DNA from: a virus
Virus record (IMG/VR): IMGVR_UViG_3300042503_000983
Coordinates: 1 to 64,000 of that record
DNA length: 64,000 bases
Strand: one strand, 5' to 3'
The notes under the pieces are model-generated. The model made no database searches, was not told where the DNA came from, and saw only the letters and a program-made list of their open reading frames with translations. This document shows positions 10,736 to 25,968 of this stretch, in pieces (position 1 is the stretch's first letter; each line of letters opens with the position of its first letter). The translations under genes were made by a program, and so were the position numbers.

Positions 10736-11067
10736 ATCTTGCTGAGATAGAATCAAGAGTATTTCTTCTGGGATTCTGGAAGAACTATTCTGAACTGGAG
10801 GACTCTATATCAATGCCCGAACTGGTAGCAATACTAGAAGCTAAAAATAGTCAAGAATATGAAAGTAGAAAATTCATGGCAGCTTTACAGGGCGTTGATT
10901 TAGATAGTTCAGATACGTCTAAGAATAAATGGGAAGAGATAAAGGCTAGAGCTTTTAGCAAAGGTGCTACATCGAATCCTAGAGACATTCTTGCCCTTCA
11001 AGGCAAAGCTGCACAACGTGCTGGCTTTGGAATTGGAAATGGCTTGGATTATGAGGTGGTTAATTAA
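10400..11067 (+). CDS. Tail assembly chaperone, -1 frameshift product (GT-like)
   Basis: Reading through 10702 and slipping back one base on C-CCA-AAC (10696-10702) enters an open frame that runs to 11067, giving about 222 residues. The last stop in the -1 frame (TGA at 10690-10692) lies just before the slippery site, so the new frame is open from there. The downstream part carries SRVFLLGFWKNYSELEDSISMPELVAILEA and continues to the tape measure start; the ATG at 10813 is therefore probably internal. This is the conserved G/GT arrangement of long-tailed phages; the mechanism is predicted, not shown. Confidence 0.75.
10696..10702 (+). promoter_or_regulatory. -1 ribosomal frameshift site CCCAAAC
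   Basis: X-XXY-YYZ heptamer in the frame of the upstream chaperone gene (gaC CCA AAC). It is the only such site in the overlap open in both frames that I found. Confidence 0.75.
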
Positions 11068-14000
11068 TGGCTGGAGTAGCTAAAGGCATTATTGATATCC
11101 AGATAAACACTGGGTCTGCTGCTGCTGAGCTAAAAAAGCTCCAACTACAAATTAACTCCTTTAATTCAGCCCTTTCCAAGGGAAATCTAGCCCAAGCTAA
11201 ATTTGCTACTGACTATACAAGAGATCTTTCAAAAGCAATAAATTCAACTGGAGTTTTTACTTCAGAGTTTGTAAAGTTAAACTCCGCTGCTGCAAATCTT
11301 GACAACACTTTAAAAAGAGGAAGAGGAACTTTAGGTCAATTTTTTAGTTCTGCATTTAATAGAAATAGTGCAGCGTTTGCAGAAACAATGTCTCTTGCAG
11401 CTAGAAGAGCTTCTACCTTGCAAACACAATTTATTTCAACTGGTGCTTCTGCACAAGGTATGGGTGAAGCTCTTGCAATTAGACCTCTAGATGCCTATGC
11501 CTCTAAAGCAGCAATTGCAGCAGAAAGACAAGCCCTTCTAAATACAATGTTTAGACAGGGAACAACCCACATGATTAACTTTGGTAAAAATGTTCAGTGG
11601 GCTGGTCGTCAGCTTATGGTTGGCTTTACCGTACCTTTAACTGTTTTAGGAACAGTCGCAGGTAAAACCTTTATGGATATTGAAAAAGAATTAGTTAATC
11701 TTAAAAAGGTTTATGGAGATGCTTTTACAACTCCAGAAGAAGTAAATCAAAATATTGCACAAGTTAGACAACTTGCTGAAGAATATACAAAATATGGAAT
11801 TGCAGTAAAAGATACTATTGGAATGGCTGCAAATGCAGCAGCTTCTGGTGCAAGAAATGCAGACTTAATAGATGCAACAAGACAAGCAACAAGACTAGCA
11901 ACTCTTGGTCAGATGGAGCAGCAAGAAGCTTTAAAGACTACAATAGCCCTGCAATCTGCTTTTAGACTTTCTGGAGAAGACCTTGCAGATACAATTAACT
12001 TTTTAAATATGGTTGAAAATCAAACAGTAGTTTCTTTGCAAGACTTGTCTGCAGCAATTCCAAGAGTTGCCCCAGTTATTAAAGGTCTTGGTGGAGATGT
12101 ACGAGACATGTCAGTATTCCTTGCAGCAATGCAAGAAGGTGGTGTTAGTGCAGAACAGGGTGCTAACGCACTAAAGTCTGGTCTTGCATCTTTAATTAAT
12201 CCAACAAAAGCAGCAACAGAAACTTTGGGAAGTTTTGGAATTAATCTAGATAAGATAATTTCTACAAATCGTGGAGATTTGATGGGAACAGTATTTGCTT
12301 TTGGTGAGGCACTTAAAGGCTTGGATGATTTTTCAAAGCAACAGGCATTAGAAAAAGTTTTTGGAAAGTATCAGTATGCAAGACTTGGAGCTTTGTTTGA
12401 AAATATTGTTAGAGATGGATCTCAAGCAAGTCAAGTTTTACAATTAATGGAGTATGATGTTGCAGCATTAAAAACTACAGCAGAAAAAGAACTTAGTGCT
12501 GTAGAAAATGCTTTAGGAACACAGCTTATTGGAGCAGTAGAAAGATTAAAGCTATCTCTTGAACCAATTGGAGAGATATTTGTTAAACTTGCTATTCCTT
12601 TTGTAAATTTTCTTACAACTATTGTTGAAAAATTTAATGGGCTATCTGATGGTCAAAAGAAATTTGCAGCAATAGCAGCAGTCCTTGTTGGTGTCGTAAT
12701 TCCTGCTGGAACAATGTTTCTTGGTCTTTTAATTAACTTGCTTGGAACACTTGGAAAAATTAGTCATGGAATTGCAATTTTCGTAAAGTCACTTATTAAG
12801 GGTGGTCCAATAGCAGCAATAAGAACACTTACGCAATCTACCAAATATTTATCAATTGAAGAACTAGAAGCAGCAACTGCTGCAAAGCAATTGTCATCTG
12901 CTACACATATTGCTAAAGCAGCAATGCTAGAACAGGCTACTTCTACAGATATTGCAAGAATAGCTGTGGCAAAGCTTACTGCAGAGTACAGAACTCTTAT
13001 ATCAGCACAGGCACAGGCAGCAGCATTTAATCCAGCATTTAAAACTGCAGGTATGGCAGGAGCTGCAGCAGGTGCAGGTAAAACTGGTTCTGTTACAGTT
13101 AGAGCCCTTAGAAGAAATGCTGGTGGACCAATATTTGTATCTGGAGAAACACAGGTTCCAGGAGTTGGAAATACTGACACCGTTCCAGCAATGCTTACTC
13201 CAGGAGAGTTTGTTGTAAACAAAGAGGCAACTGCAAAAAATTATGCACTTCTTGATGCAATCAATAGTGGAAATAAATTTAATAAGGGCGGAATGATTCC
13301 TGGATACAATCTTGGATCAATGGTTTTAAGAAATAGTCAAGCAAGAAATCAGGCTATTAAGGAAAGATATCTTAGAATGTTTGGACCTGAAGCTCAGGCT
13401 AAAGGGATAAGTCTTGAAGAAAGATTTGGAAATCTTTCACTGCTATCAAGACAAGATCGTATTAAAAACCAAAGAGCTTTAAAACCAAAAAATGTGACAG
13501 CAAGACGAACATCGCCCAACCAACAAAGAGCTCAACAAGATGTACAGGAAGGACCTATTCGAAATGTTCAAAGCGTTGGTAACGCACCACAGAGTGTTAT
13601 AGATGAACTAACGGCAGACTTGGTAGCACTAGGAGCTCCAGCTAATGTTATGGGTGAAAAGGCAAGACTTATCACTCCAACACCAAGATATAAAAGAGAG
13701 GGTCCAGCACTTGAGGGTGATACCAGCTATGGAAAAGAGTTTGACTTTAATAATAGTCTGAGGCGTGGAGTGAGCAACCCTAATCTTGGCGTTGCTAGAA
13801 AAGAAATGGAAGATCTTTTTGCACTAAATCCTCAACTTCATGGAACCTCAACTCCAGTCTCTCCATTTAAACACATATTAGATGAAGCTAACCTTGATCC
13901 TGCTCATTATTCAAGAATTGACTCAGCACTAAGATCTAAGGCTATAGAAATTGTTAAAAGGTCTCCAGAATCTCATAAATTTTCAGATCCTGAATACGGA

Positions 14001-17000
14001 AGAATTATTGTTGACTCATTAAGGGCAGCAAATCTTTCAACTATTCTTCAAGAAAGATTGTTGTCTACAGCAAGAATAATGAATACAGAAATTGGTTCAA
14101 GATCAATGAAAAGGTTTGAACCATACATTAAGGATTCTATTAGATTTAGTGATACTGGTGGCATACATCCAAAGTTTGAACCTGTTCCAAATGCTCCTAG
14201 AGGTGGTACATACATATATACTGCAAGTGATGGAACACGAGTTGAAATAAATGCAGGACAGTCACGACCTATACCTGGAAGATTATCGTATTCAAATCAA
14301 AGATATAATGCAGGTCGCACATATAACAATGCACATGCAGAAGTTCAAGATTTTAATGCTGGTGGAGCTGTTGGAGGTATGCAATATTTTGGCAGAATGA
14401 TGCCAAATCGTGTTGTTGCAAAAAACCAATTTGAAAAGTTCTCTGGAACAAAGATTGCAGAGTCAGAAGGACATAGTAGTAGGTTTAGAAGCCTAGCTGG
14501 AGTTTATGAGGTTAATGGCAGAAAAATGTTTGTTAAGCCATTTCAAACTCTTCAAGAAGCTCAGGCAGAATTAATTGGAAATGCGGCAAGAAGAGCAATT
14601 GCAGGAACTGCAACCCCTGGATCAAGAATTGTAAGAATGGACGGTCCTGAAGGAGAAATATTTGCAACAACTGCTCCAATGATTCCAGGAATGAAATCAG
14701 GATCAACTCTTTCTACTAAAGAACTTGTCAAGCAAATTCCTGCCTCATCAATGCTTGGAGATATGGATGCAACAGCTGGAAATATTATTTCAACTCGTGG
14801 AGGAAGACTTGCAACAATTGATCCTGGTGCTGCAGGTGTTAAGCTAATTAGAAATTCAAAAGGTGTATTTAGAAGAGCTACTGGATCTGAAATTAGTTTT
14901 GGAAATGAAGCAACAAATACTGGAGCATATACAGCAAAAGCAATTACACAGGTTATTGAAAAAACAGGGGCATCAAAAGACTTTGTTAAAATGCTTGGAG
15001 ATTCTATTGCTCGTGAAAAATTAACTAAAGCACAATTTACAAAAATGTATGATGATGCTGTTGAGTCAGCTATTGCAAGAGTGTCTTCCTTTAAACTACC
15101 TTCTAGAATTGGAGATAGATCAAAATTAGATGAGTTAGCAAGAGCATCTGGATATAAAAATGCAGATGAAGCATACTCTGCAATTATGCTTAGAGACCTT
15201 ACTTCAATTAGAGGTTTAAGTGGAGAGATATATACAAGTGCTTCAAGATTCCAAGGAGTGCTAAAGGCAAATAGTGGAACTCTTGTTCCAGGTGTAGGAA
15301 ATACTGATACAGTTCCTGCAATGCTAACTCCTGGAGAGTTTGTAATTAATAAAGATGCTACTGCAAAAAATCTTCCTTTGCTACAGGCAATTAATAACGG
15401 AGAAACAAGAAGGTATGGTCTTGGAGACTATGTTAACCCTCTTGGTTCATTGACAAATGCTCAAAGAATAAAAGGAATTAGACCTTCAGCATCATACCAG
15501 CAATCAAGATCCGCCACTGGATACAATGTCTTTAGTGGAATGGGTTCTGCTGAAAAAATTGCACCAGTCCAGGCAGCATTAAAAACAGGTCCAAAATATA
15601 TATTAGACGCATATAAAGAATCTGGAAAAGCAATTTCAGATGCAGCCAAACCAATGTTAACTTCTTTTAAAGATACAAGTAAGTCTGTTGCAAATGGAGC
15701 AAATAATTTAAAAAATTCTATTAAAGATTATGGAAAATGGAATGTTGTTCCAAGAATGCAAGATGCAAAACAGGCTGTGGCAAACACAAGGGCAGCTATG
15801 GGAACTCCTGAAGCAAAGGCTCTTAGAGCAGAAAGAATGCAAAAAGCTGGTCAAGGAATGATGATGGCTTCAATGATTCCAATGATGGCTTCAGGTTTTG
15901 TAGAAGATCCAAAGCAACAGCAAATGATGATGGCTGCTGGAGGTGCTATGGCTATTCTTCCAATGCTTCAACAGTTTGGTCCAATTTTAGGAGGACTAAC
16001 CCTAGCAGTAGGAGCTGCTGCTGCAGGATTCTTAATGTTTAAAAAGGATATGGATAATACTGCTAAATCAGCTGCAGAATTTGGGTCAAACCTTGGTGGG
16101 GCAGCAAATAGAATGGAAACAATTAGTGCTGCAACTGGTTATGGATTTGCGTCAACAAGATCTTCAGTACAAGACTTTAGATTTACAGAAGAGCAGTCAC
16201 AAGGTGCTGCTGAAATGATGCCTTTCTTTGATACTGATGAGGGTAAAAAGCTTGTAGAAGACTTAAAGGGTGCTTCTTCTGAAGAAAGGTATGAGAAAGT
16301 TGCATCAATGCTAACATTTGCAATAGCAGATGGAATGGATCCTAAAAAAGCAGAGTCTTTTGGATCTGCAATAGCTTTTGCATTAGACGATTCATTATTA
16401 AAATCAAAAACAGTAGCTCTTATTAGATCTGGAAGGCTTCAAAGTGGATCTCAAGCAATGATTAGTGAAATTTCTAAAAGACAGGCAGCTGCAGACTCTT
16501 CAACGGTTTCAGATTTTGAAAAAGCAAAAGCTGAAGAGGCAAAAAGAAATAATACTGCTGGAACTAGTTCCAATGTAAAGTATGGAGGAATTGGGTTAGC
16601 TGCAGGTTTAGGTGCAGGAGTTGCAATCGCTGCATCAACTGCAAAGCTAGCAGCAATGGGTGGTGCAATAGGATCAGTAGTTCCAGTTGTTGGAACTGCT
16701 GTTGGTGCTGTAGCTGGTGCTGTAGTTGGATTAGTGGCTGGTATAGCAGTTTACAATCTAGCAATAAAAAATCAACAAAAACAGGTTGCAGAGTCATCCA
16801 AATCATTTGGAGCAACTATTCAAACATTAAAAGAATTAAACAATGCCGAATCTTTATTAAATGAAGAAAGGTCTAAAGGATTAATAACAGATACTCAGTT
16901 CGAATCTTCTTTAAAACAAATTAATGAAATGAGACAAGTTGAGTATGAAAGAGTTAAGAAGGCTATAGACATTGGAGCAAGTGCAGATGCACAGGCACAA

Positions 17001-20000
17001 GGAATTAAAGACCAGTTAGTGCTTTCTGGATTTAAGGGAGATACTGCTCAGGCAGTTGCATCTAATGTAACAACTGATAGTATTTCAAATAAGCTGTTCC
17101 AAAAAGATATGGACAAGCTAGATCAAGCTCAAAAAGATGTAGTAACTGGAATTATGGCAAGCACTTTGGATGGAATAACTGAAGAAAATGCTGGAGCAAA
17201 AATTGGAGACATAACAGACATCTATGCAAAAATAGCAGATGAACTAGTTACAGCAGCAGCAGATGGCTTAACCTCAGAAGAAATTAGGGCTGAAGCAGAA
17301 AAGGAACAAATTAGAAAGTTTGCTGAATCTGCAGCATCTAATCTTGTGAACCTAACTCCTGAACAACAGGCTGCAAGAGCAAATACTATGGCAAGCAATG
17401 TTAGTGCTGCACTTCCTAATGTAAATAAGATGGGTGTCACTACTTCTCAACTAGTAAGTGGAATTTCAGGGGTAAGTGCAGAAGATCAAGCAAAGATAAC
17501 AGAGTCAACTGCTAATGTTGAAAAATTTGCACAGCTTTTAAATAGTCTTCCAGAAGGATATGACCTATCTCTAGCAATGGAATATTTCTCTGGAGATAAT
17601 AAAGAACAAGATGTAGATGCATTCTATAAAACACAAAAAGATGCTATTGATAAAATTGCAGAACTTATGCCAAAGGGAGCAGATGCTCAGGCAATCTATA
17701 CCGCACTCAAAGGACCTGGAAAAGATCCAGTTAAAGAGTTAGAGGCTGCAAATAAAAAAGCTCAAGAAATGTTTGATTCTCTAGGTGGAGATGAAGCTAA
17801 AGTAAAGAGCGTTGTATTTGAAAGTACTGGGTACGACATGACACAGGCAGAAGTAGATGCCTTTGGTGCACTTCCTGCAAGTGAGCAAAAATCATATTTA
17901 GCATCATTTACCATTGCAACTATGTCAGTTGGAAATGCACCAACTATTCCTCAGTCAGGAGCTCCTGCAGAAATGTCAGCCTACTACAAGAGACTAGAGG
18001 TTTGGAAAAAAGCTGTAGCAGATCAACAAAAAGCTATCCAGTCAGTAATTCCTCAGACAGTTGTTAATACTGATGACAACGGTAGTAGCTCTGGCGGAAC
18101 AAAGCCTCCTAGCAAAAAGGCTCAAGCAAAAACTTTCTTAAAAGATGCTACTACGAATAACAAAGTTCTTAAAAATTACACAAACCTAGTTAAAGGTGCT
18201 GCAACAGCTAACAATATAGAAGCCCTTAGCATGATTCCTCAAGATGTATACATGAATCTTTCTACTGAAAATAGAAAGAAATTGATTAAAGAAATGCAAA
18301 AGCAAATTGCGTATCAACAAAGATTAAATGCAGTAACAGTTTTAGCAGAAACTCAAAAAGCTACAGCAGATATGAAAAAATATTCAAAAGCACTTAACTC
18401 TTTGGGTGTTGTAATAACTTCAGATATCGAAGGAATGATTGACCAGAAAGCATTCCTTGCTATGACTACTGAAGAAAGAAAGGCATACATTGCAGAGCTG
18501 AATAAACAATCAGTAGCACAAGCTAAGCTAGCAGCAACTATGGCACTTGCAGATGCCAAAAAACAAACTAGCGATATGCAAAAATATTCTGCTGCACTAG
18601 GTGGACTAGGTGTTGCAATAAGCTCAGACATTGAAGGAATGATTGATCAAAAAGCATTCCTTGCTATGAACACTGCTCAAAGAAAAGCATATATTGCAGA
18701 GCTAAATAAGCAGACTTTGGCACAGGCTAAGCTAGCAGCTGCAATGGAAATTACAGACATGCAACAACAAACTCAAGAAATGCAAAATTACTTTAATGCA
18801 ATTTCTCCAATCGCTGCTGCTGCTGGGGCAGAAGTTTTGGGAATGATAGATACAGAAAAGTATCTTGCAATGACTACTACACAAAGGGAGGAATATGTAA
18901 AACAGCTAACTTCTCAGCTAAATGTTCAAAGAGCACTTGATTATTTAACACAGACTTCTCAAGAAAGAACAATGGATGCAATAGATGCAGAATCTTCAGC
19001 AATAAATATTAAGAATTCTGCATTACAAAACTCCCTTTCTGGAATGGAAAGAGAAAATGAGTTAATACAACGTCAAATAAGTTTAAGAAACCATGCTCTT
19101 GATTTGTTAGCAAAAGAAGAAGAAAAGATTAATACAACTTATGATGATAGAGTAAAGGCTCTTGATAAGGTTGCTAATGCAAATGATAGAATTGCTCAAA
19201 AAGATCGTTCAAGATTAGACCTAGCTTCAGCACTTGCATCTGGAGATATTTCTGCTGCAGCAGGTGCAGCAAGTGCAATGCAACAAGAAGAGGCACAGTT
19301 TAGAATTGAGGACGCAAGGGCAGCACTTGAAGCAAAAAGACAAAAAGAACTTGAATCGTTAACAGTTTCTGTAAATGGTGTAATGATGACAAGAAAGCAA
19401 ATTACAGAACAAATATCTCAGTTTGGTGAGACTATTTACAAAAATGAACAAGACATGATTTTAATTCAAGACCAACTTTATGCTAACTCTCTTGCACAAA
19501 AAGTACTAGATGATCAAAGAATGAAGTTAGAACAGCAAGTTTTGTTAATAAAAATGAGACAAAATATTGAAGCCTTAAGAGCACAGGGGTTAACTGGTCA
19601 AGCTTTAATAGATTTTCAAAATTATATTGATGCCTATAATACCCTTCAGGCAGCAGCTGCAGCAGCTGACATTGGAAATCCTGGAGCTGCTGCAAATACA
19701 ACATTGGGTGCTGGTGGCGGAGGAGGAGCTGCTGCAGTAATTGCTGCTCCAACTCCTGTAGCTGCTGTAACTCCAGTAACTCCACCACCACCGCCTCCTC
19801 CACCACCGCCTCCTCCACCACCTCCACCGCCACCACCTCCACCGCCACCACCGCCACCACCACCTGTTTATAGCTATTATACAAAAGCTCAATTCAATGC
19901 TGGAATAAAAGACTCAAAAGTTTCTTATGGAAATGGAAGTGAGCAGCATTACATAGCCAGAAAGTTGGGCTATTCGAATCCAACTGCTAGAACAGTAAAA

Positions 20001-20474
20001 GCAGACGAGATGGACAATGTTTATTGGGCTCTTTCAGAAGCAAGAAGGCAAGAGATTACAGAGTTAGTAAAAGAAGCAAGAGCCTCTACATCAAAAGCAT
20101 TTTCTGGATATAACAGTGGAGGTCTTGTTGCAGGACCTGGAAATACTGACAGTATATCTGCAATGCTCACCCCTGGAGAATTTGTAGTAAGAAGATCTAT
20201 GGTGGATAAATATGGAATGTCACTGCTTGAAGCAATAAATATGGGTGCTTTTAAAATGCCAAACATGCAGGAGCCTAAGTTTAGCTTTAGTGATTCTGGA
20301 AGATATGATACTGGAATTAGTGATGCAAGAGTTACTGAAACAATGTATAATAATGTATATAACTTAAATGTTAATGTTGCTGGAACAGATGCCTCACCAG
20401 ACGATATTGCAAATGTAGTTATGGCAAAGCTTTCACAGCAAAATAGAGGAAATTTAAGGAGCAATAGATACTAA
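11067..20474 (+). CDS. Tape measure protein (3135 residues)
   Basis: Sets tail length and is ejected with DNA. The conserved core (about residues 150-420) has FGKNVQWAGRQLMVGFTVP and the phage tape-measure pattern GLGGDVRDMSVFLAAMQEGG. Hydrophobic segments occur at about 536-563, 1637-1657 and 1837-1896. A kinase-like segment spans about 1115-1375 (K1157, E1168, D1232/D1234, N1239, D1252). GNTDTVPAMLTPGEFV-type motifs recur near 694, 1407 and 3022. Four 68-residue repeats lie at about 2360-2630, then coiled coil, then 28 consecutive prolines, then a ~70-residue module shared with the 1618-residue tail protein. At 0.33-nm helical rise per half-heptad-type estimates the tail would be several hundred nm, so a very long tail. 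Starts one base into the chaperone stop. Confidence 0.95.
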   Translation: MAGVAKGIIDIQINTGSAAAELKKLQLQINSFNSALSKGNLAQAKFATDYTRDLSKAINSTGVFTSEFVKLNSAAANLDNTLKRGRGTLGQFFSSAFNRNSAAFAETMSLAARRASTLQTQFISTGASAQGMGEALAIRPLDAYASKAAIAAERQALLNTMFRQGTTHMINFGKNVQWAGRQLMVGFTVPLTVLGTVAGKTFMDIEKELVNLKKVYGDAFTTPEEVNQNIAQVRQLAEEYTKYGIAVKDTIGMAANAAASGARNADLIDATRQATRLATLGQMEQQEALKTTIALQSAFRLSGEDLADTINFLNMVENQTVVSLQDLSAAIPRVAPVIKGLGGDVRDMSVFLAAMQEGGVSAEQGANALKSGLASLINPTKAATETLGSFGINLDKIISTNRGDLMGTVFAFGEALKGLDDFSKQQALEKVFGKYQYARLGALFENIVRDGSQASQVLQLMEYDVAALKTTAEKELSAVENALGTQLIGAVERLKLSLEPIGEIFVKLAIPFVNFLTTIVEKFNGLSDGQKKFAAIAAVLVGVVIPAGTMFLGLLINLLGTLGKISHGIAIFVKSLIKGGPIAAIRTLTQSTKYLSIEELEAATAAKQLSSATHIAKAAMLEQATSTDIARIAVAKLTAEYRTLISAQAQAAAFNPAFKTAGMAGAAAGAGKTGSVTVRALRRNAGGPIFVSGETQVPGVGNTDTVPAMLTPGEFVVNKEATAKNYALLDAINSGNKFNKGGMIPGYNLGSMVLRNSQARNQAIKERYLRMFGPEAQAKGISLEERFGNLSLLSRQDRIKNQRALKPKNVTARRTSPNQQRAQQDVQEGPIRNVQSVGNAPQSVIDELTADLVALGAPANVMGEKARLITPTPRYKREGPALEGDTSYGKEFDFNNSLRRGVSNPNLGVARKEMEDLFALNPQLHGTSTPVSPFKHILDEANLDPAHYSRIDSALRSKAIEIVKRSPESHKFSDPEYGRIIVDSLRAANLSTILQERLLSTARIMNTEIGSRSMKRFEPYIKDSIRFSDTGGIHPKFEPVPNAPRGGTYIYTASDGTRVEINAGQSRPIPGRLSYSNQRYNAGRTYNNAHAEVQDFNAGGAVGGMQYFGRMMPNRVVAKNQFEKFSGTKIAESEGHSSRFRSLAGVYEVNGRKMFVKPFQTLQEAQAELIGNAARRAIAGTATPGSRIVRMDGPEGEIFATTAPMIPGMKSGSTLSTKELVKQIPASSMLGDMDATAGNIISTRGGRLATIDPGAAGVKLIRNSKGVFRRATGSEISFGNEATNTGAYTAKAITQVIEKTGASKDFVKMLGDSIAREKLTKAQFTKMYDDAVESAIARVSSFKLPSRIGDRSKLDELARASGYKNADEAYSAIMLRDLTSIRGLSGEIYTSASRFQGVLKANSGTLVPGVGNTDTVPAMLTPGEFVINKDATAKNLPLLQAINNGETRRYGLGDYVNPLGSLTNAQRIKGIRPSASYQQSRSATGYNVFSGMGSAEKIAPVQAALKTGPKYILDAYKESGKAISDAAKPMLTSFKDTSKSVANGANNLKNSIKDYGKWNVVPRMQDAKQAVANTRAAMGTPEAKALRAERMQKAGQGMMMASMIPMMASGFVEDPKQQQMMMAAGGAMAILPMLQQFGPILGGLTLAVGAAAAGFLMFKKDMDNTAKSAAEFGSNLGGAANRMETISAATGYGFASTRSSVQDFRFTEEQSQGAAEMMPFFDTDEGKKLVEDLKGASSEERYEKVASMLTFAIADGMDPKKAESFGSAIAFALDDSLLKSKTVALIRSGRLQSGSQAMISEISKRQAAADSSTVSDFEKAKAEEAKRNNTAGTSSNVKYGGIGLAAGLGAGVAIAASTAKLAAMGGAIGSVVPVVGTAVGAVAGAVVGLVAGIAVYNLAIKNQQKQVAESSKSFGATIQTLKELNNAESLLNEERSKGLITDTQFESSLKQINEMRQVEYERVKKAIDIGASADAQAQGIKDQLVLSGFKGDTAQAVASNVTTDSISNKLFQKDMDKLDQAQKDVVTGIMASTLDGITEENAGAKIGDITDIYAKIADELVTAAADGLTSEEIRAEAEKEQIRKFAESAASNLVNLTPEQQAARANTMASNVSAALPNVNKMGVTTSQLVSGISGVSAEDQAKITESTANVEKFAQLLNSLPEGYDLSLAMEYFSGDNKEQDVDAFYKTQKDAIDKIAELMPKGADAQAIYTALKGPGKDPVKELEAANKKAQEMFDSLGGDEAKVKSVVFESTGYDMTQAEVDAFGALPASEQKSYLASFTIATMSVGNAPTIPQSGAPAEMSAYYKRLEVWKKAVADQQKAIQSVIPQTVVNTDDNGSSSGGTKPPSKKAQAKTFLKDATTNNKVLKNYTNLVKGAATANNIEALSMIPQDVYMNLSTENRKKLIKEMQKQIAYQQRLNAVTVLAETQKATADMKKYSKALNSLGVVITSDIEGMIDQKAFLAMTTEERKAYIAELNKQSVAQAKLAATMALADAKKQTSDMQKYSAALGGLGVAISSDIEGMIDQKAFLAMNTAQRKAYIAELNKQTLAQAKLAAAMEITDMQQQTQEMQNYFNAISPIAAAAGAEVLGMIDTEKYLAMTTTQREEYVKQLTSQLNVQRALDYLTQTSQERTMDAIDAESSAINIKNSALQNSLSGMERENELIQRQISLRNHALDLLAKEEEKINTTYDDRVKALDKVANANDRIAQKDRSRLDLASALASGDISAAAGAASAMQQEEAQFRIEDARAALEAKRQKELESLTVSVNGVMMTRKQITEQISQFGETIYKNEQDMILIQDQLYANSLAQKVLDDQRMKLEQQVLLIKMRQNIEALRAQGLTGQALIDFQNYIDAYNTLQAAAAAADIGNPGAAANTTLGAGGGGGAAAVIAAPTPVAAVTPVTPPPPPPPPPPPPPPPPPPPPPPPPPPPPVYSYYTKAQFNAGIKDSKVSYGNGSEQHYIARKLGYSNPTARTVKADEMDNVYWALSEARRQEITELVKEARASTSKAFSGYNSGGLVAGPGNTDSISAMLTPGEFVVRRSMVDKYGMSLLEAINMGAFKMPNMQEPKFSFSDSGRYDTGISDARVTETMYNNVYNLNVNVAGTDASPDDIANVVMAKLSQQNRGNLRSNRY
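18140..18955 (+). repeat. Four tandem 204-bp (68-residue) repeats in tape measure gene
   Basis: The anchor ATGATT/ATGATA codons (Met-Ile) of successive units begin at 18231, 18435, 18639 and 18843, an exact 204-base period. Units 2 and 3 are most alike (SDIEGMIDQKAFLAM); units 1 and 4 have diverged. Boundaries are approximate. Confidence 0.85.
19782..19865 (+). repeat. Run of 28 proline codons
   Basis: 28 consecutive CCN codons mixing CCA, CCG and CCT, in frame in the tape measure gene. Mixed codons argue for protein-level selection and against simple slippage. Confidence 0.95.
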
Positions 20475-21112
20475 TGGTTAGTAGTGCATATTTAAATTCT
20501 AGAAAAAAGTGGGAAAGACCACAAGCAATTATTTTTTCAAATAACTCTGGAGGAATTTTAAATGGTGTTCCACAAATTTCTGGAGTTGAAGGACAAGACT
20601 TCTTAATACTTTCTGACCATAATAGAAGTGACATTTCTTTTAATGCTAATAGAATTGAAAGTAAAAAAAGAATGGTAAATGGTCATATGCGTTCTTATCA
20701 TATTGCAGATAAGATGGAGATATCTTTTTCTTATGACATGCTTCCTTCAAGATCTTACAGCAAAGATCCAGAGTTTGATGAAAATGGAATTCAAACATCA
20801 GACTCTTTGGTTCCAGATACTCCAAAAAATCCAAGACTATTTCCAGCAGAGCACACCTTGATAGAATATACAGCAGATGGCGGTGCTGGAGGATCAGAGC
20901 TATTAGAATGGTACAAAACAAATCCAGGATCATTTTATGCATTTTTATCTTACGACAAGCCTCAAAGTTTTACTGTTGGAAAATATACTAGTTTAAATAA
21001 GTATTCAGAAGTGTTAGAAGTATTTTTCTCAGACTTTAGTTACAACGTTGTCAAAAGAGGTGGGTCTAATCACGATCTATGGGACATATCTATTTCTATT
21101 GAGGAGGTATAA
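20474..21112 (+). CDS. Putative distal tail protein
   Basis: 212 residues, beta-rich, following the tape measure with a one-base overlap, the usual place of the distal tail (Dit-like) protein that joins tube to tip. Features include YHIADKMEISFSYDMLPSRSYS and a C-terminal LWDISISIEEV strand typical of the N-terminal ring domain of such proteins. No carbohydrate-binding insertion is obvious. Assigned by position and fold pattern. Confidence 0.65.
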   Translation: MVSSAYLNSRKKWERPQAIIFSNNSGGILNGVPQISGVEGQDFLILSDHNRSDISFNANRIESKKRMVNGHMRSYHIADKMEISFSYDMLPSRSYSKDPEFDENGIQTSDSLVPDTPKNPRLFPAEHTLIEYTADGGAGGSELLEWYKTNPGSFYAFLSYDKPQSFTVGKYTSLNKYSEVLEVFFSDFSYNVVKRGGSNHDLWDISISIEEV

Positions 21113-24100
21113 TGTTTTCAGATAATGATTTAATTAACCATCTTAAAACAAAGAATAGTGTATCCATAGATTCCTTGGTTATTGCAGAGTGGAATCAAAA
21201 TGATTTTACTAACCTTGAAAACTATGGTAACTATAGGTTTAGACCAGATGGATCAGATGTAGTATATAGAAATATTTATCCAGAATATGATCCACAAGAT
21301 GTTGTAAATTCTTATACCAATGCCTTGGATTCAAACTACATTTCTGAATATAAAACAGAAGACCCAGATGAGCCAGTTACTTTTATTACAAAAGAAAGTG
21401 ATAGAGAATCTTACTACTCTTTAAAGGATTGCATTAAGCCTTTTAGACCTAGATCTGGAATCAACAAGATGTTGTATTTTGGAGAGTCTAATATTAATAA
21501 TACCAAGTTTGTTGACAGCTTTAGATCTGGAAGAAGACCAAGGTATTATTTTTCTTCAAGGTTTGACAACTTTAAATACTGGAACTCTTATAGAAAAGAA
21601 TCTGGTCAAGAGTTTGGAATATCTAGTCAGGTTGCTACATTTTTTACCACTGATAATCCTTCTTACAAAATAAAAGACTGTGCCCCATTTGTTACTTACA
21701 AAAACAAGGTAGCTACAAATAGAATAGTCGTAAAGATGCAAACTAATCTAGCTGATCCAGCAGCAGTTGGTGTTAATGGAGACTCTCTAGTTCCTGAAGA
21801 AATTAGAAGAAACAATTCTTTAATAGCAGATCCAATGAAAGATATATCAAAATCTTCTGTTCCAAAAAAATGGAAAATACAATACCTTGATGAAAACAAT
21901 AACTGGGCTGACGCAATACAGTTTGATGAAACGTCTACTAGAAGAGATGGGTCAAGAATTGTTCCTTGGGATGGATATGTAGAAGTATATTATGGAATAA
22001 AAATTCCAGAAAGATTTAGAACAAACTTTAACCTATATAGCTATTTAGATTCTTTTGATCAATTACCAGACACTAGTTTGTACAATTTTTCTAACAATAC
22101 AAGAGATGGAGATGCATATATAGTTGGAGCCTCATCAACTAATGCAGGAACTCTTTATGTTTGGAGCCAGGAAGATGAAGAGTGGGCAGACTATGATGTA
22201 GAATATGGATTTTCACTATTAGAAGATGACGATACAAAAAGGCTTGGACTAGTTAAAAAAATATTAAATCCAGAATACTTTAACATTGAAGGTACTGACA
22301 TCTATAGAGAATTTGCCTTTGTTAAGGGAATTAGGCTAGTTGTTGAAACTATGTATGCTCCAAATAAAACTTTTGATTTAATTGAAATATCTCCAAGACT
22401 AAAGGTTAACATAACTGATTATGTTTTAGATTATGAAATTACTAAAAACATTATGGCAACAGACTATGGTCTTCCCGTTGGAGGTCTTGTTGCTTCAACT
22501 GGAAACGTATCCTTGTCAAACCATGACGGATCTTTTACAGAGTTAAATGTTTTTGACGAAGAGGATAAAACTGGGAGCATTATTGCAAACAATCTTAAGC
22601 CACAAATTAAATTTGACTTTTATGAAGCAGTTCTTAATGTTAATGGATATGATAAATTTATTCCACTAAAAACATTTTACTCAGAAAATGCAGCTATTGC
22701 AACCAGTGGCATGGAAGATATATCTTTAGACTTAAGAGATGCATATTTTATTCTAGAATCAAATAAAGCTGCACCAATATTTTTACAAAATTGTACCCTA
22801 ACCATGGCAGCAGCACTTCTTCTTGATAACATAGGTTTTAGTAACTATGTCTTTAAAAATATAACCTCTGTAAACGATCCTGTAATACCTTTTTTCTTTG
22901 TTGAACCAGACACTTCAGTTTCAGAAATTTTACAAAGACTAGCACAGTCTACTCAAACTGCAATGTTTTTTGACGAGTACAATAACTTTGTTATCATGCC
23001 AAAAGAATATTTGATGCCAGACATCTCTATTAGAGATAATAATTTAGCAATATCAGAAAGACTCACAAACTTATATGGTCAAAAAACTGATAACTTTGTT
23101 CCAAATATTGAGGCTATTGCAGGATTTGAAACAAACATTTTAAACGATGGTCAAATTAACTACACTACTAGATATATTCAAAGAGAAGTTTCAAGACTAG
23201 AGCAAGCAAGTCTTAGCCTAAGTGAAAGAACCTATGGATATAAGAGCTCTATCCTTTGGGAGCTTGGAGATCAAAAAGAATTAAGAACTATAAATCAGCC
23301 AACCGCTAATACAGGGTATGCACTTGGAGCTGTAACTTTAAATACAAGCTTACCAGACTTTGCTCCGTATGTAAGAAATCATCAAATTGTAAACAACACA
23401 ATTGATGTTGGAGAAAGTGCGTTTTGGCTACCAAGGTTTCAAGGATACTTGTATGCAAATGGAGAAATTATAAGATATGATGCTCAACAGTATCACGTTG
23501 ATGCCCCGTCTGCTTCTGCTACAAATGGTCTTGTTTGGATAACAAGTAATAATGAGTATCAAAAGTATTTTTCAAACTTGGTATTTAATGGAAAAATGAC
23601 TCTTACAGGGCTGCTTAGAATCTATACAGAACCTTACTACGAGAATGCTTCTGGATCAAATTTTGAGAACCTTGAAGAAAATGTTAGATATAAAAACGGA
23701 GATGTTAGGTCTCATGGTAGAGGTCAGTTTGGTACTGGAATAGTAAATCACTTTGCAGGACTAAATCCTTACTGGGAAGATCCAGACAATAGAAGGTCTT
23801 TTAGAATGGACTCAGGAAATATTTATAGCACTATTCCTGCAAAATTTTTTCCCAACTTGGAACTTGAAGTGCCAATTACAACTATAATACCTTATGAATT
23901 TTATACAGACAGTGAGTTTGTTCAAGGTATTTTAAATCCTAGACTATCCTATGGAAGAGGAAGTGAGCAGCACTATATTGCCAAAGCAATGGGATACACT
24001 GATCCATTAGCATACAGCGTAAGGGCTGCAGAAATGGTAGGGGTATATAGAAATTTAAGCCCTTATAGAAAAAATGTAATTACTGGAATGATAATAAGGG

Positions 24101-25968
24101 CTAATTCTAGTACACAAAATGTTTTTGGATACATGTCAGGATTTAATATGACTCAAATTTCTGATGAGCCACCAAGGTACAACTACGCCATGCCACTTGG
24201 AGATGATCCAATTTCTAAAAGCCAATCCCTAGTTCATGGAAAAATTGCAAACTTTATGAAACAATCAACAAGAACAGAAGGATTTTCTAGCTATAGTCAG
24301 CAAGACACTGCTGGAATTCAGTCCTCAGCTTTAGTTTTTTCAGGACCATATCCAGTACCATCTTTAGCAAACCCAGTATTTAACAGAACAGAACTATCTG
24401 CTACTACTGAAACAGATTTAGTAAACTATGTTTATAAAAGTTTAGATACAGATTATACTCATGTTGGAACTAGAATGAGAATTATTGGAAAACAAAAAGA
24501 TGACGATACTCAGTCTGCTTTAAATTCTATAAAACTATTTGATATTGATCAAAATAGTTCCACAGGAGGATTAAATGTAAAAGAGCTTTCTGGTGGAGCT
24601 GGAGGAATTGGATACATGCTAGATCCAATAACAAACTCTGGATACTACCTTGAAATTGCATCCCTTTCTTCAGATGTTTTAAAAGAGTTTACTAATAGTG
24701 GCTCAGTATCTTCTGGCTCAGTATCTTCTGGCTCAGTATCTTCTGGCTCAGTATCATATGAACCAGTTATTGAAAACATAATTTTTTATAAAGTTGAAAA
24801 TAGACCATACCTTAGACAGAAAACTGGAAAAACAAATATTGCAGTTCCTAAAAAGCTTTGGGGGTCTCTTGCAAGAATTCTTGTAGATGAAGGAAAGTTT
24901 ATAGGATCTGACAGGGCAACTTCTCAAGAAATTCCAGTGTACGATCTATCTTTGGATGTACAAATTTCTAGAAATGGATCAAGAATATCAAGAATAGATT
25001 TTTCCATATACTTAAACAATGTATTAATTGGAATAGTAAGTGACGAAACTCCATTACAAATGCCAGTTGATGGATTAAAAACTGGACTATTTACTAGAGG
25101 TTCAAGCAGATGTATGTTTGAAAATATTTATGCCCTAAAGAATATAAAAGAAAACGACACCCCTTTGCTTGAAAAAATTGAAGGAGCATTTTCTGCAGAA
25201 TCTCTGAGAAAGTATTCCCTTCCAGCAGCAATTCAAAGAACATACATGTCTTCCATTGGAACAGAGACAAGACCAACTGTAGATTTTTATTTTGAAGAGT
25301 TTGGCACAATTTTAAGAGAATGTGCATATTTTAATATTAAGTATGACCAAGCTTATCCAGCATTAATTGCAAAAATAGTTCCCCCATTTACTGTTGAAAA
25401 ATCATATGAAATTTCTGGATTTTTGCCAGGATCATATGGAGCAGAGTTTTTATTATTCAATACAACAGACAAGGCAATAGACTTGAGTGAAAATTCTACC
25501 AATAGAATTATGATTCAAGGAATAACTTTTACTCAAAATATATCAAATGTCCTTACTGTAGACGATTACTTTAAGGAACTATCGAACTTCTCTGATCCAG
25601 TTATTACAGAAAATAATTTAATAATTTCTCCAGAAAGGTCAGAAAAAATTTATGATAACATTAAGAACAGTAGGGCTATTTATGGAAACAAATCATTTTC
25701 TTTAGATTCTGTTTATATTCAAAATGAAGACTCTGCAAAAGATGTTATGAAGTGGATTCTAGATAAAACTATTAAACCAAGAAAGGTTTTTGAAATAGAT
25801 ACTTTTGGAACTTCTCATATACAACTTGGAGATATCGTTAAGATAGATTTTGACTTACCAGAAGGAGTTAAGCTAGTGGATGAGAACAAGAAGTTTGTAG
25901 TAATATCTGCTACATACAACAGATCTTCTTCGGATGTTCAAAGTCAATTAAGGTTGATGGAGGTTTAA
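21112..25968 (+). CDS. Large tail tip / baseplate-hub-like protein (1618 residues)
   Basis: Follows the distal tail protein by one base. The middle (about 430-650) resembles hub/Tal-type proteins: ITDYVLDYEITKNIMATDYG, then SVSEILQRLAQSTQTAMFFDEYNNFVIMP. A ~70-residue module at about 927-1000 matches the end of the tape measure. Residues about 1197-1216 carry four SGSVS repeats. The C-terminal end (HIQLGDIVKIDFDLPEGV) looks like the second hub domain. The region between is beta-rich and may hold LamG-like carbohydrate-binding domains. Likely part of the adsorption apparatus. No peptidase motif was found. Confidence 0.75.
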   Translation: MFSDNDLINHLKTKNSVSIDSLVIAEWNQNDFTNLENYGNYRFRPDGSDVVYRNIYPEYDPQDVVNSYTNALDSNYISEYKTEDPDEPVTFITKESDRESYYSLKDCIKPFRPRSGINKMLYFGESNINNTKFVDSFRSGRRPRYYFSSRFDNFKYWNSYRKESGQEFGISSQVATFFTTDNPSYKIKDCAPFVTYKNKVATNRIVVKMQTNLADPAAVGVNGDSLVPEEIRRNNSLIADPMKDISKSSVPKKWKIQYLDENNNWADAIQFDETSTRRDGSRIVPWDGYVEVYYGIKIPERFRTNFNLYSYLDSFDQLPDTSLYNFSNNTRDGDAYIVGASSTNAGTLYVWSQEDEEWADYDVEYGFSLLEDDDTKRLGLVKKILNPEYFNIEGTDIYREFAFVKGIRLVVETMYAPNKTFDLIEISPRLKVNITDYVLDYEITKNIMATDYGLPVGGLVASTGNVSLSNHDGSFTELNVFDEEDKTGSIIANNLKPQIKFDFYEAVLNVNGYDKFIPLKTFYSENAAIATSGMEDISLDLRDAYFILESNKAAPIFLQNCTLTMAAALLLDNIGFSNYVFKNITSVNDPVIPFFFVEPDTSVSEILQRLAQSTQTAMFFDEYNNFVIMPKEYLMPDISIRDNNLAISERLTNLYGQKTDNFVPNIEAIAGFETNILNDGQINYTTRYIQREVSRLEQASLSLSERTYGYKSSILWELGDQKELRTINQPTANTGYALGAVTLNTSLPDFAPYVRNHQIVNNTIDVGESAFWLPRFQGYLYANGEIIRYDAQQYHVDAPSASATNGLVWITSNNEYQKYFSNLVFNGKMTLTGLLRIYTEPYYENASGSNFENLEENVRYKNGDVRSHGRGQFGTGIVNHFAGLNPYWEDPDNRRSFRMDSGNIYSTIPAKFFPNLELEVPITTIIPYEFYTDSEFVQGILNPRLSYGRGSEQHYIAKAMGYTDPLAYSVRAAEMVGVYRNLSPYRKNVITGMIIRANSSTQNVFGYMSGFNMTQISDEPPRYNYAMPLGDDPISKSQSLVHGKIANFMKQSTRTEGFSSYSQQDTAGIQSSALVFSGPYPVPSLANPVFNRTELSATTETDLVNYVYKSLDTDYTHVGTRMRIIGKQKDDDTQSALNSIKLFDIDQNSSTGGLNVKELSGGAGGIGYMLDPITNSGYYLEIASLSSDVLKEFTNSGSVSSGSVSSGSVSSGSVSYEPVIENIIFYKVENRPYLRQKTGKTNIAVPKKLWGSLARILVDEGKFIGSDRATSQEIPVYDLSLDVQISRNGSRISRIDFSIYLNNVLIGIVSDETPLQMPVDGLKTGLFTRGSSRCMFENIYALKNIKENDTPLLEKIEGAFSAESLRKYSLPAAIQRTYMSSIGTETRPTVDFYFEEFGTILRECAYFNIKYDQAYPALIAKIVPPFTVEKSYEISGFLPGSYGAEFLLFNTTDKAIDLSENSTNRIMIQGITFTQNISNVLTVDDYFKELSNFSDPVITENNLIISPERSEKIYDNIKNSRAIYGNKSFSLDSVYIQNEDSAKDVMKWILDKTIKPRKVFEIDTFGTSHIQLGDIVKIDFDLPEGVKLVDENKKFVVISATYNRSSSDVQSQLRLMEV
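24700..24759 (+). repeat. Four 15-bp tandem repeats (SGSVS codons)
   Basis: GGCTCAGTATCTTCT is repeated exactly three times from 24700, with a fourth copy diverging in its last bases. The 15-base period keeps frame, so slippage changes length of the linker without breaking the gene. Confidence 0.95.

Follow-up and report, generated by a model that had tools for sequence, protein, structure and literature searches.

A predicted kinase-fold module, exchangeable as a cassette, in the tape measure protein of a probable tailed phage

Introduction

Besides their known role as rulers, the tape measure proteins of some phages also carry cell-wall enzymes. Those of tailed phages are ejected and inserted into the membrane, and some effectors of injection systems derive from tape measures (PMC13277306). 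Entry into the host together with the DNA is assumed for the multi-enzyme polyvalent proteins of phages and conjugative elements, for which cassette-like exchange has also been proposed (Iyer et al. 2017, PMC5512222). Here we describe a predicted kinase-fold module located within the tape measure protein of a virus from the IMG/VR database (record IMGVR_UViG_3300042503_000983), of which bases 1-64000 of a total of 72.9 kb were analysed and are referred to as the window.

Polyvalent proteins carry kinase, ADP-ribosyltransferase (ART), GNAT and nucleotidyltransferase domains (PMC5512222). In the sections consulted, their carriers include MuF, portal and N4-type RNA polymerase proteins and no tape measure carrier was seen; the term 'tape measure' does not occur in the paper. 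The kinases which they describe constitute a monophyletic group of the Ser/Thr/Tyr superfamily that lacks the C-terminal subdomain, carries an insert between the catalytic His and Asp, and occurs mostly in (pro)phages of Verrucomicrobia-Chlamydia and Bacteroidetes.

Catalytic residues and their conservation

The module and its putative catalytic residues are located as follows, with coordinates of the window.

11067..20474, + strand: tail tape measure protein, 3135 aa, the module carrier
14379..15260, + strand: kinase-fold module, tape measure residues about 1105-1399, supported by an AlphaFold2 model, Foldseek and alignments
14535..14537, + strand: K1157, beta3 lysine
14568..14570, + strand: E1168, alphaC glutamate
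14760..14783, + strand: catalytic loop D1232-M-D1234-ATAG-N1239 (D1232 at 14760, D1234 at 14766, N1239 at 14781)
14820..14822, + strand: D1252, predicted metal-binding Asp, in DPG where DFG is usual

An initial annotation, made from the sequence and its open reading frames (ORFs), had read K1157, E1168, D1232, D1234, N1239 and D1252 as a kinase-like order, and all six residues were found exactly at these places. Close copies of the domain occur on five IMG/VR contigs, one identical and four at about 86% identity. When the N-terminal 672 residues of the protein served as query, 74 tape measure loci were retrieved, and a domain profile detected distant copies in about 20 of them. Among ten diverse homologues, assembled without pattern searches for the named motifs, 23 of 294 columns were invariant and these included all six named residues (hypergeometric p about 1e-7). 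Scanning viral contigs with the ten-copy alignment produced 116 stretches encoding a relative, 80 of which were retained.

Each of the six residues was invariant in all 109 loci carrying related domains, at identities to the window domain extending down to 22-28%; because some loci overlap on the same contig, the figure of 109 should not be read as a number of independent genomes. When the set was cut to 37 rows, 18 columns were still invariant. The peptides used in a pattern scan covered D1232/D1234 and E1168, and therefore only the Lys, the Asn and the last Asp constitute independent tests there (p about 2e-4). Every match of that scan lay inside a giant tape-measure-type ORF and none was stand-alone; over the 109 loci, the domain copies lie near positions 720, 790, 1000-1060, 1300 or 1550 of such ORFs, and the carriers are spread over about a hundred related virus contigs. 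A tblastn search of the domain against 50,697 phage records and a single scan of bacterial genome contigs revealed no relative. One locus, L023, was rejected; it had been matched by an early iterative profile through a linker motif, and the linker was then cut out.

Relative to the relatives of the window, the ratio of nonsynonymous to synonymous substitution rates of the kinase stretch was about 0.26-0.28, compared with 0.14-0.18 for the N-terminal backbone, and these values place the kinase stretch under purifying selection.

Predicted fold

Structure prediction had been proposed in the initial annotation as a check for a bilobal kinase fold, and AlphaFold2 models were generated for the window sequence, with 37 alignment rows, and for a homologue, with 56 rows. 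The window domain yielded a predicted local distance difference test score (pLDDT) of 75 and a predicted template modelling score (pTM) of 0.77, and the homologue gave values of 88 and 0.85, respectively. In both models a beta-sheet N-lobe precedes a helical C-lobe, and the order of elements is a beta hairpin bearing the Lys, a helix bearing the Glu, two further strands, a helix, the D-N loop, a small hairpin and the second Asp, followed by the C-lobe. The predicted topology thus bears out the proposed kinase order, with the Lys on beta3, the Glu on alphaC, a D-x-x-x-x-N loop and a metal Asp; the geometry of the pocket was deduced from the model topology alone. The predicted N-lobe sheet with its Lys-Glu pair, D-N loop, metal Asp and helical C-lobe are those of a protein-kinase-like fold. 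The catalytic Asp and the Asn are spaced by five residues, a spacing that also occurs in HipA and PI3K.

When both models were compared with the PDB using Foldseek, essentially all of the top 50 matches were kinases or kinase-fold proteins. Those of the window model included BAK1, TGFBR1, CotH, CtkA, PI3K, PI4K and LepB (best E 3e-4), and the homologue model matched CtkA, followed by MAP kinases and HipA (best E 4e-3). Among viral models (BFVD) the best matches were phage proteins of large size; the annotations of some read ADP-ribosyltransferase, portal or PI3K/PI4K catalytic domain. We consider it very highly probable that the module has a kinase fold, and probable that it is an active kinase.

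Membership of the HipA family found no support by sequence: no HipA profile match was obtained and hhalign against E. coli HipA gave E 0.38; for the PI3/PI4 kinases (PF00454), no Pfam match of the window domain exceeded the cut-off. PDB matches of the A3 profile, to WD40 repeats, were spurious, one short motif having been matched many times.

Exchange of the module between related tape measures

The zone containing the module, between residues about 698 and 1426, is flanked by two 124-nt direct repeats, 77% identical to one another, which encode the linker VPGVGNTDTVPAMLTPGEFV. Conserved linkers at the module borders are of the VPGxGNTDTVPAMLTPGEFV type. Features of the zone, and the modules found in its place in relatives (loci prefixed L), are as follows.

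13148..13271, + strand: linker 1 (VPGVGNTDTVPAMLTPGEFVVNK...), direct repeat, upstream border of the cassette zone
15278..15401, + strand: linker 2, downstream border of the cassette zone
13340..14360, + strand: cassette A, approximate borders, no assigned function; recognisable in one relative (L002/L011), different sequence in L003 and L005
L068, 5212-5985: PI3K/HipA-like module (GNVDTHAGN...LDIG) in the kinase slot, with weak PI3_PI4_kinase and HipA-family signals
L014, 9179-10156: module with an ART-like SWSTGxGV motif, which occupies the kinase position in the L012-L016 and L071 tape measures; motif only, unconfirmed by profile

In relatives with N-termini 84-88% identical to that of the window protein, the kinase is kept at about 86% identity, and the segment just upstream is unrelated in L003 and L005. 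The initial annotation had suggested comparing related tape measures to see whether the domain is an insertion, and this it proved to be, since tape measures whose N-terminal backbones are about 95% identical may lack it or have a different module in its place. Thus, L052 and L068 share 96% identity over their first 640 residues, and one carries this kinase and the other the different module listed above. The N-terminal backbones of L043 and L049 are 94% identical, and L049, which has no copy of the kinase, is shorter by 300 aa. The short tape measures of L018-L022 (2060-2070 aa) contain a single linker in the zone and no module, and those of the isolate Streptomyces phages Wakanda and Yaboi (2088 and 2093 aa) are also devoid of the kinase module. 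On these comparisons, the kinase-fold module is an exchangeable cassette.

Other enzyme modules in sister tape measures

In the window, the sequence neighbouring the module shows no comparable pattern, as had been noted initially, yet the corresponding zone of related tape measures houses other enzyme modules. Four of them combine the kinase with a further candidate enzyme.

L090, 7918-8406: HAD acid phosphatase module (E 3e-18, above the Pfam cut-off)
L088, 6793-7836: GNAT-like module (E 6e-4, just under the cut-off) and HIGH-type nucleotidyltransferase-like motif
L017, 14105-14725: NMNAT-like, HIGH-type nucleotidyltransferase module (E 1e-4; PDB 1f9a, E 0.02)
L118, 3967-4743: ART-like module, motif only

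The ART reading of L118 and L014 derives from a motif (R, S-x-S, ExE-like) that no profile confirmed, and the nucleotidyltransferase reading of L088 likewise derives from its motif. A search for further copies of the L017 nucleotidyltransferase module returned L017 alone.

Genomic setting of the tape measure gene

The carrier protein matches PHROG tail tape measure families (phrog_10030, E 5e-96) and Pfam PhageMin_Tail (E 1e-27), and its large gene lies inside a tail gene block, ahead of the minor tail genes, as found for tail tape measure proteins. Around it, profile matches were obtained for a portal, head protease, major head protein, minor tail protein, DnaB-type helicase, DNA polymerase and terminase, a gene set which fits a tailed phage. 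The closest annotated isolate relatives are the tape measures of Streptomyces, Rhodococcus and Tsukamurella phages, and for this reason the host is probably an actinobacterium.

Near the C-terminus of the tape measure, a domain of 80 residues (19869-20111) shows 47% identity (E 8e-25) to a region (23902-24132) of the minor tail protein encoded by ORF 21112-25968, which makes it a shared or duplicated tail module. Directly ahead of it, 28 prolines occur in an unbroken run (19782-19865).

Possible function of the module

We favour, with moderate confidence, the view that the module is a divergent kinase-fold cassette which is delivered into the host as an effector. It would ride in the tail lumen as part of the tape measure, be ejected with it into the host, ahead of or together with the DNA, fold inside the host cell and there, just as infection begins, phosphorylate a host molecule; as with HipA, the substrate would most likely be a protein. 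This view is based on sequence, predicted fold topology, invariance of the catalytic residues, purifying selection, cassette exchange and the co-carried enzyme modules; from these we infer that the module has ATP-dependent activity, that it reaches the cytoplasm and what kind of substrate it has. Several results weigh against it. The single domain has no significant match among Pfam, PHROGs and NCBIfam profiles, or among PDB sequences, and its sequence places it in no family. Solved kinases are matched at low TM-scores of about 0.3, which implies a divergent, compact kinase with no close relative among the solved ones, and the activation-loop region of the window model is of low confidence. 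Moreover, the lumen of the tail tube should be too narrow for a domain of about 290 aa in its folded state, and the module must, therefore, travel unfolded or threaded, or be released proteolytically.

A possible but clearly less probable alternative to a protein-directed effector is a small-molecule or lipid kinase, resembling PI3K/PI4K, CotH or aminoglycoside kinases, whose substrate would be a metabolite or a membrane lipid of the host; it might, for example, operate alongside the NMNAT-like and phosphatase modules in the metabolism of nucleotides or NAD. The weak sequence signals point in this direction, with RisK1 matching the window domain at E 0.12 and PI3_PI4_kinase (PF00454) matching the L068 module at E 0.019 (15.3 bits, below the cut-off of 27.1), as do LepB, PI4K and CotH among the structural matches of the window model and the sister modules of NMNAT-like and acid-phosphatase/5'-nucleotidase-like type. 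However, the better of the two models is closest to CtkA/HipA and protein kinases, and the fold does not reveal the substrate class.

Being part of the tape measure, the domain is synthesized in the infected cell and is thus already there when virions are assembled; an active kinase could work at that stage on the tape measure, its chaperones or tail proteins without being an effector. We regard this as unlikely, because the module is absent or replaced in close relatives with N-terminal backbones 94-96% identical, and absent from the isolate Streptomyces phages, and is therefore not needed for assembly. Least probable is a pseudokinase or inert spacer, whose retained fold merely adds length or helps the tape measure to cross the envelope; the module does sit in a protein whose job is length, amid linkers and hydrophobic segments, but a spacer would need none of the six catalytic residues that are invariant in 109 loci.

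Gain, loss and replacement of the kinase on a near-identical backbone are hard to explain by tail length and point to a new route of enzyme injection at time zero of infection. Tape measures carrying such modules may be considered 'polyvalent' tape measures which deliver enzymes at DNA ejection. Whether a widespread group of aquatic, probably actinobacterial phages has made the tape measure a polymorphic vehicle for several enzymes we judge to be evenly balanced; in such a group a conserved N-terminal backbone and linkers would hold swappable modules (kinase, NMNAT-like, HAD, GNAT and ART-like), which would enter before the genome for host takeover or for disarming defence. Two questions thereby become testable, namely by what means a folded enzyme gets through a tail tube and which host components are modified prior to expression of any phage gene, and the modules are candidates for new anti-defence or host-control enzymes.

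Comparison with known systems

The results suggest that in these phages the tail ruler itself serves as the vehicle by which enzymes reach the bacterial interior. No description of this, and no report of a kinase within a tape measure, was found in the literature searched, whose coverage mostly excludes subscription journals and preprints and thus provides no proof of novelty.

The enzyme combinations of the sister tape measures match the pattern of polyvalent proteins (PMC5512222), except that the carrier is a tape measure. The helical C-lobe in both models, of the window module and of its homologue, differs from the loss of the C-terminal subdomain in the kinases of that study and, on a comparison by description, argues against membership of their group.

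HipA and CtkA rank among the solved structures closest to the better model and also have the Asp and Asn five residues apart, followed by the metal Asp. However, no sequence similarity to E. coli HipA was detectable, and HipA is encoded in a toxin-antitoxin operon whereas the module is embedded in a tape measure.

The T7 protein kinase is expressed from a separate gene, unlike the tape measure module. Like T4 Alt, it is a phage enzyme that modifies host proteins (both cited in PMC5512222), and Alt is also carried in the virion and injected, but as a head protein with ART activity. The tape-measure-related effectors Tme and Sle1 of actinobacteria (PMC13277306) likewise derive from tape measures, have an extra function and are ejected from a tail tube. 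These act from contractile injection systems, with no kinase mentioned in that paper, whereas the window module belongs to an infectious phage.
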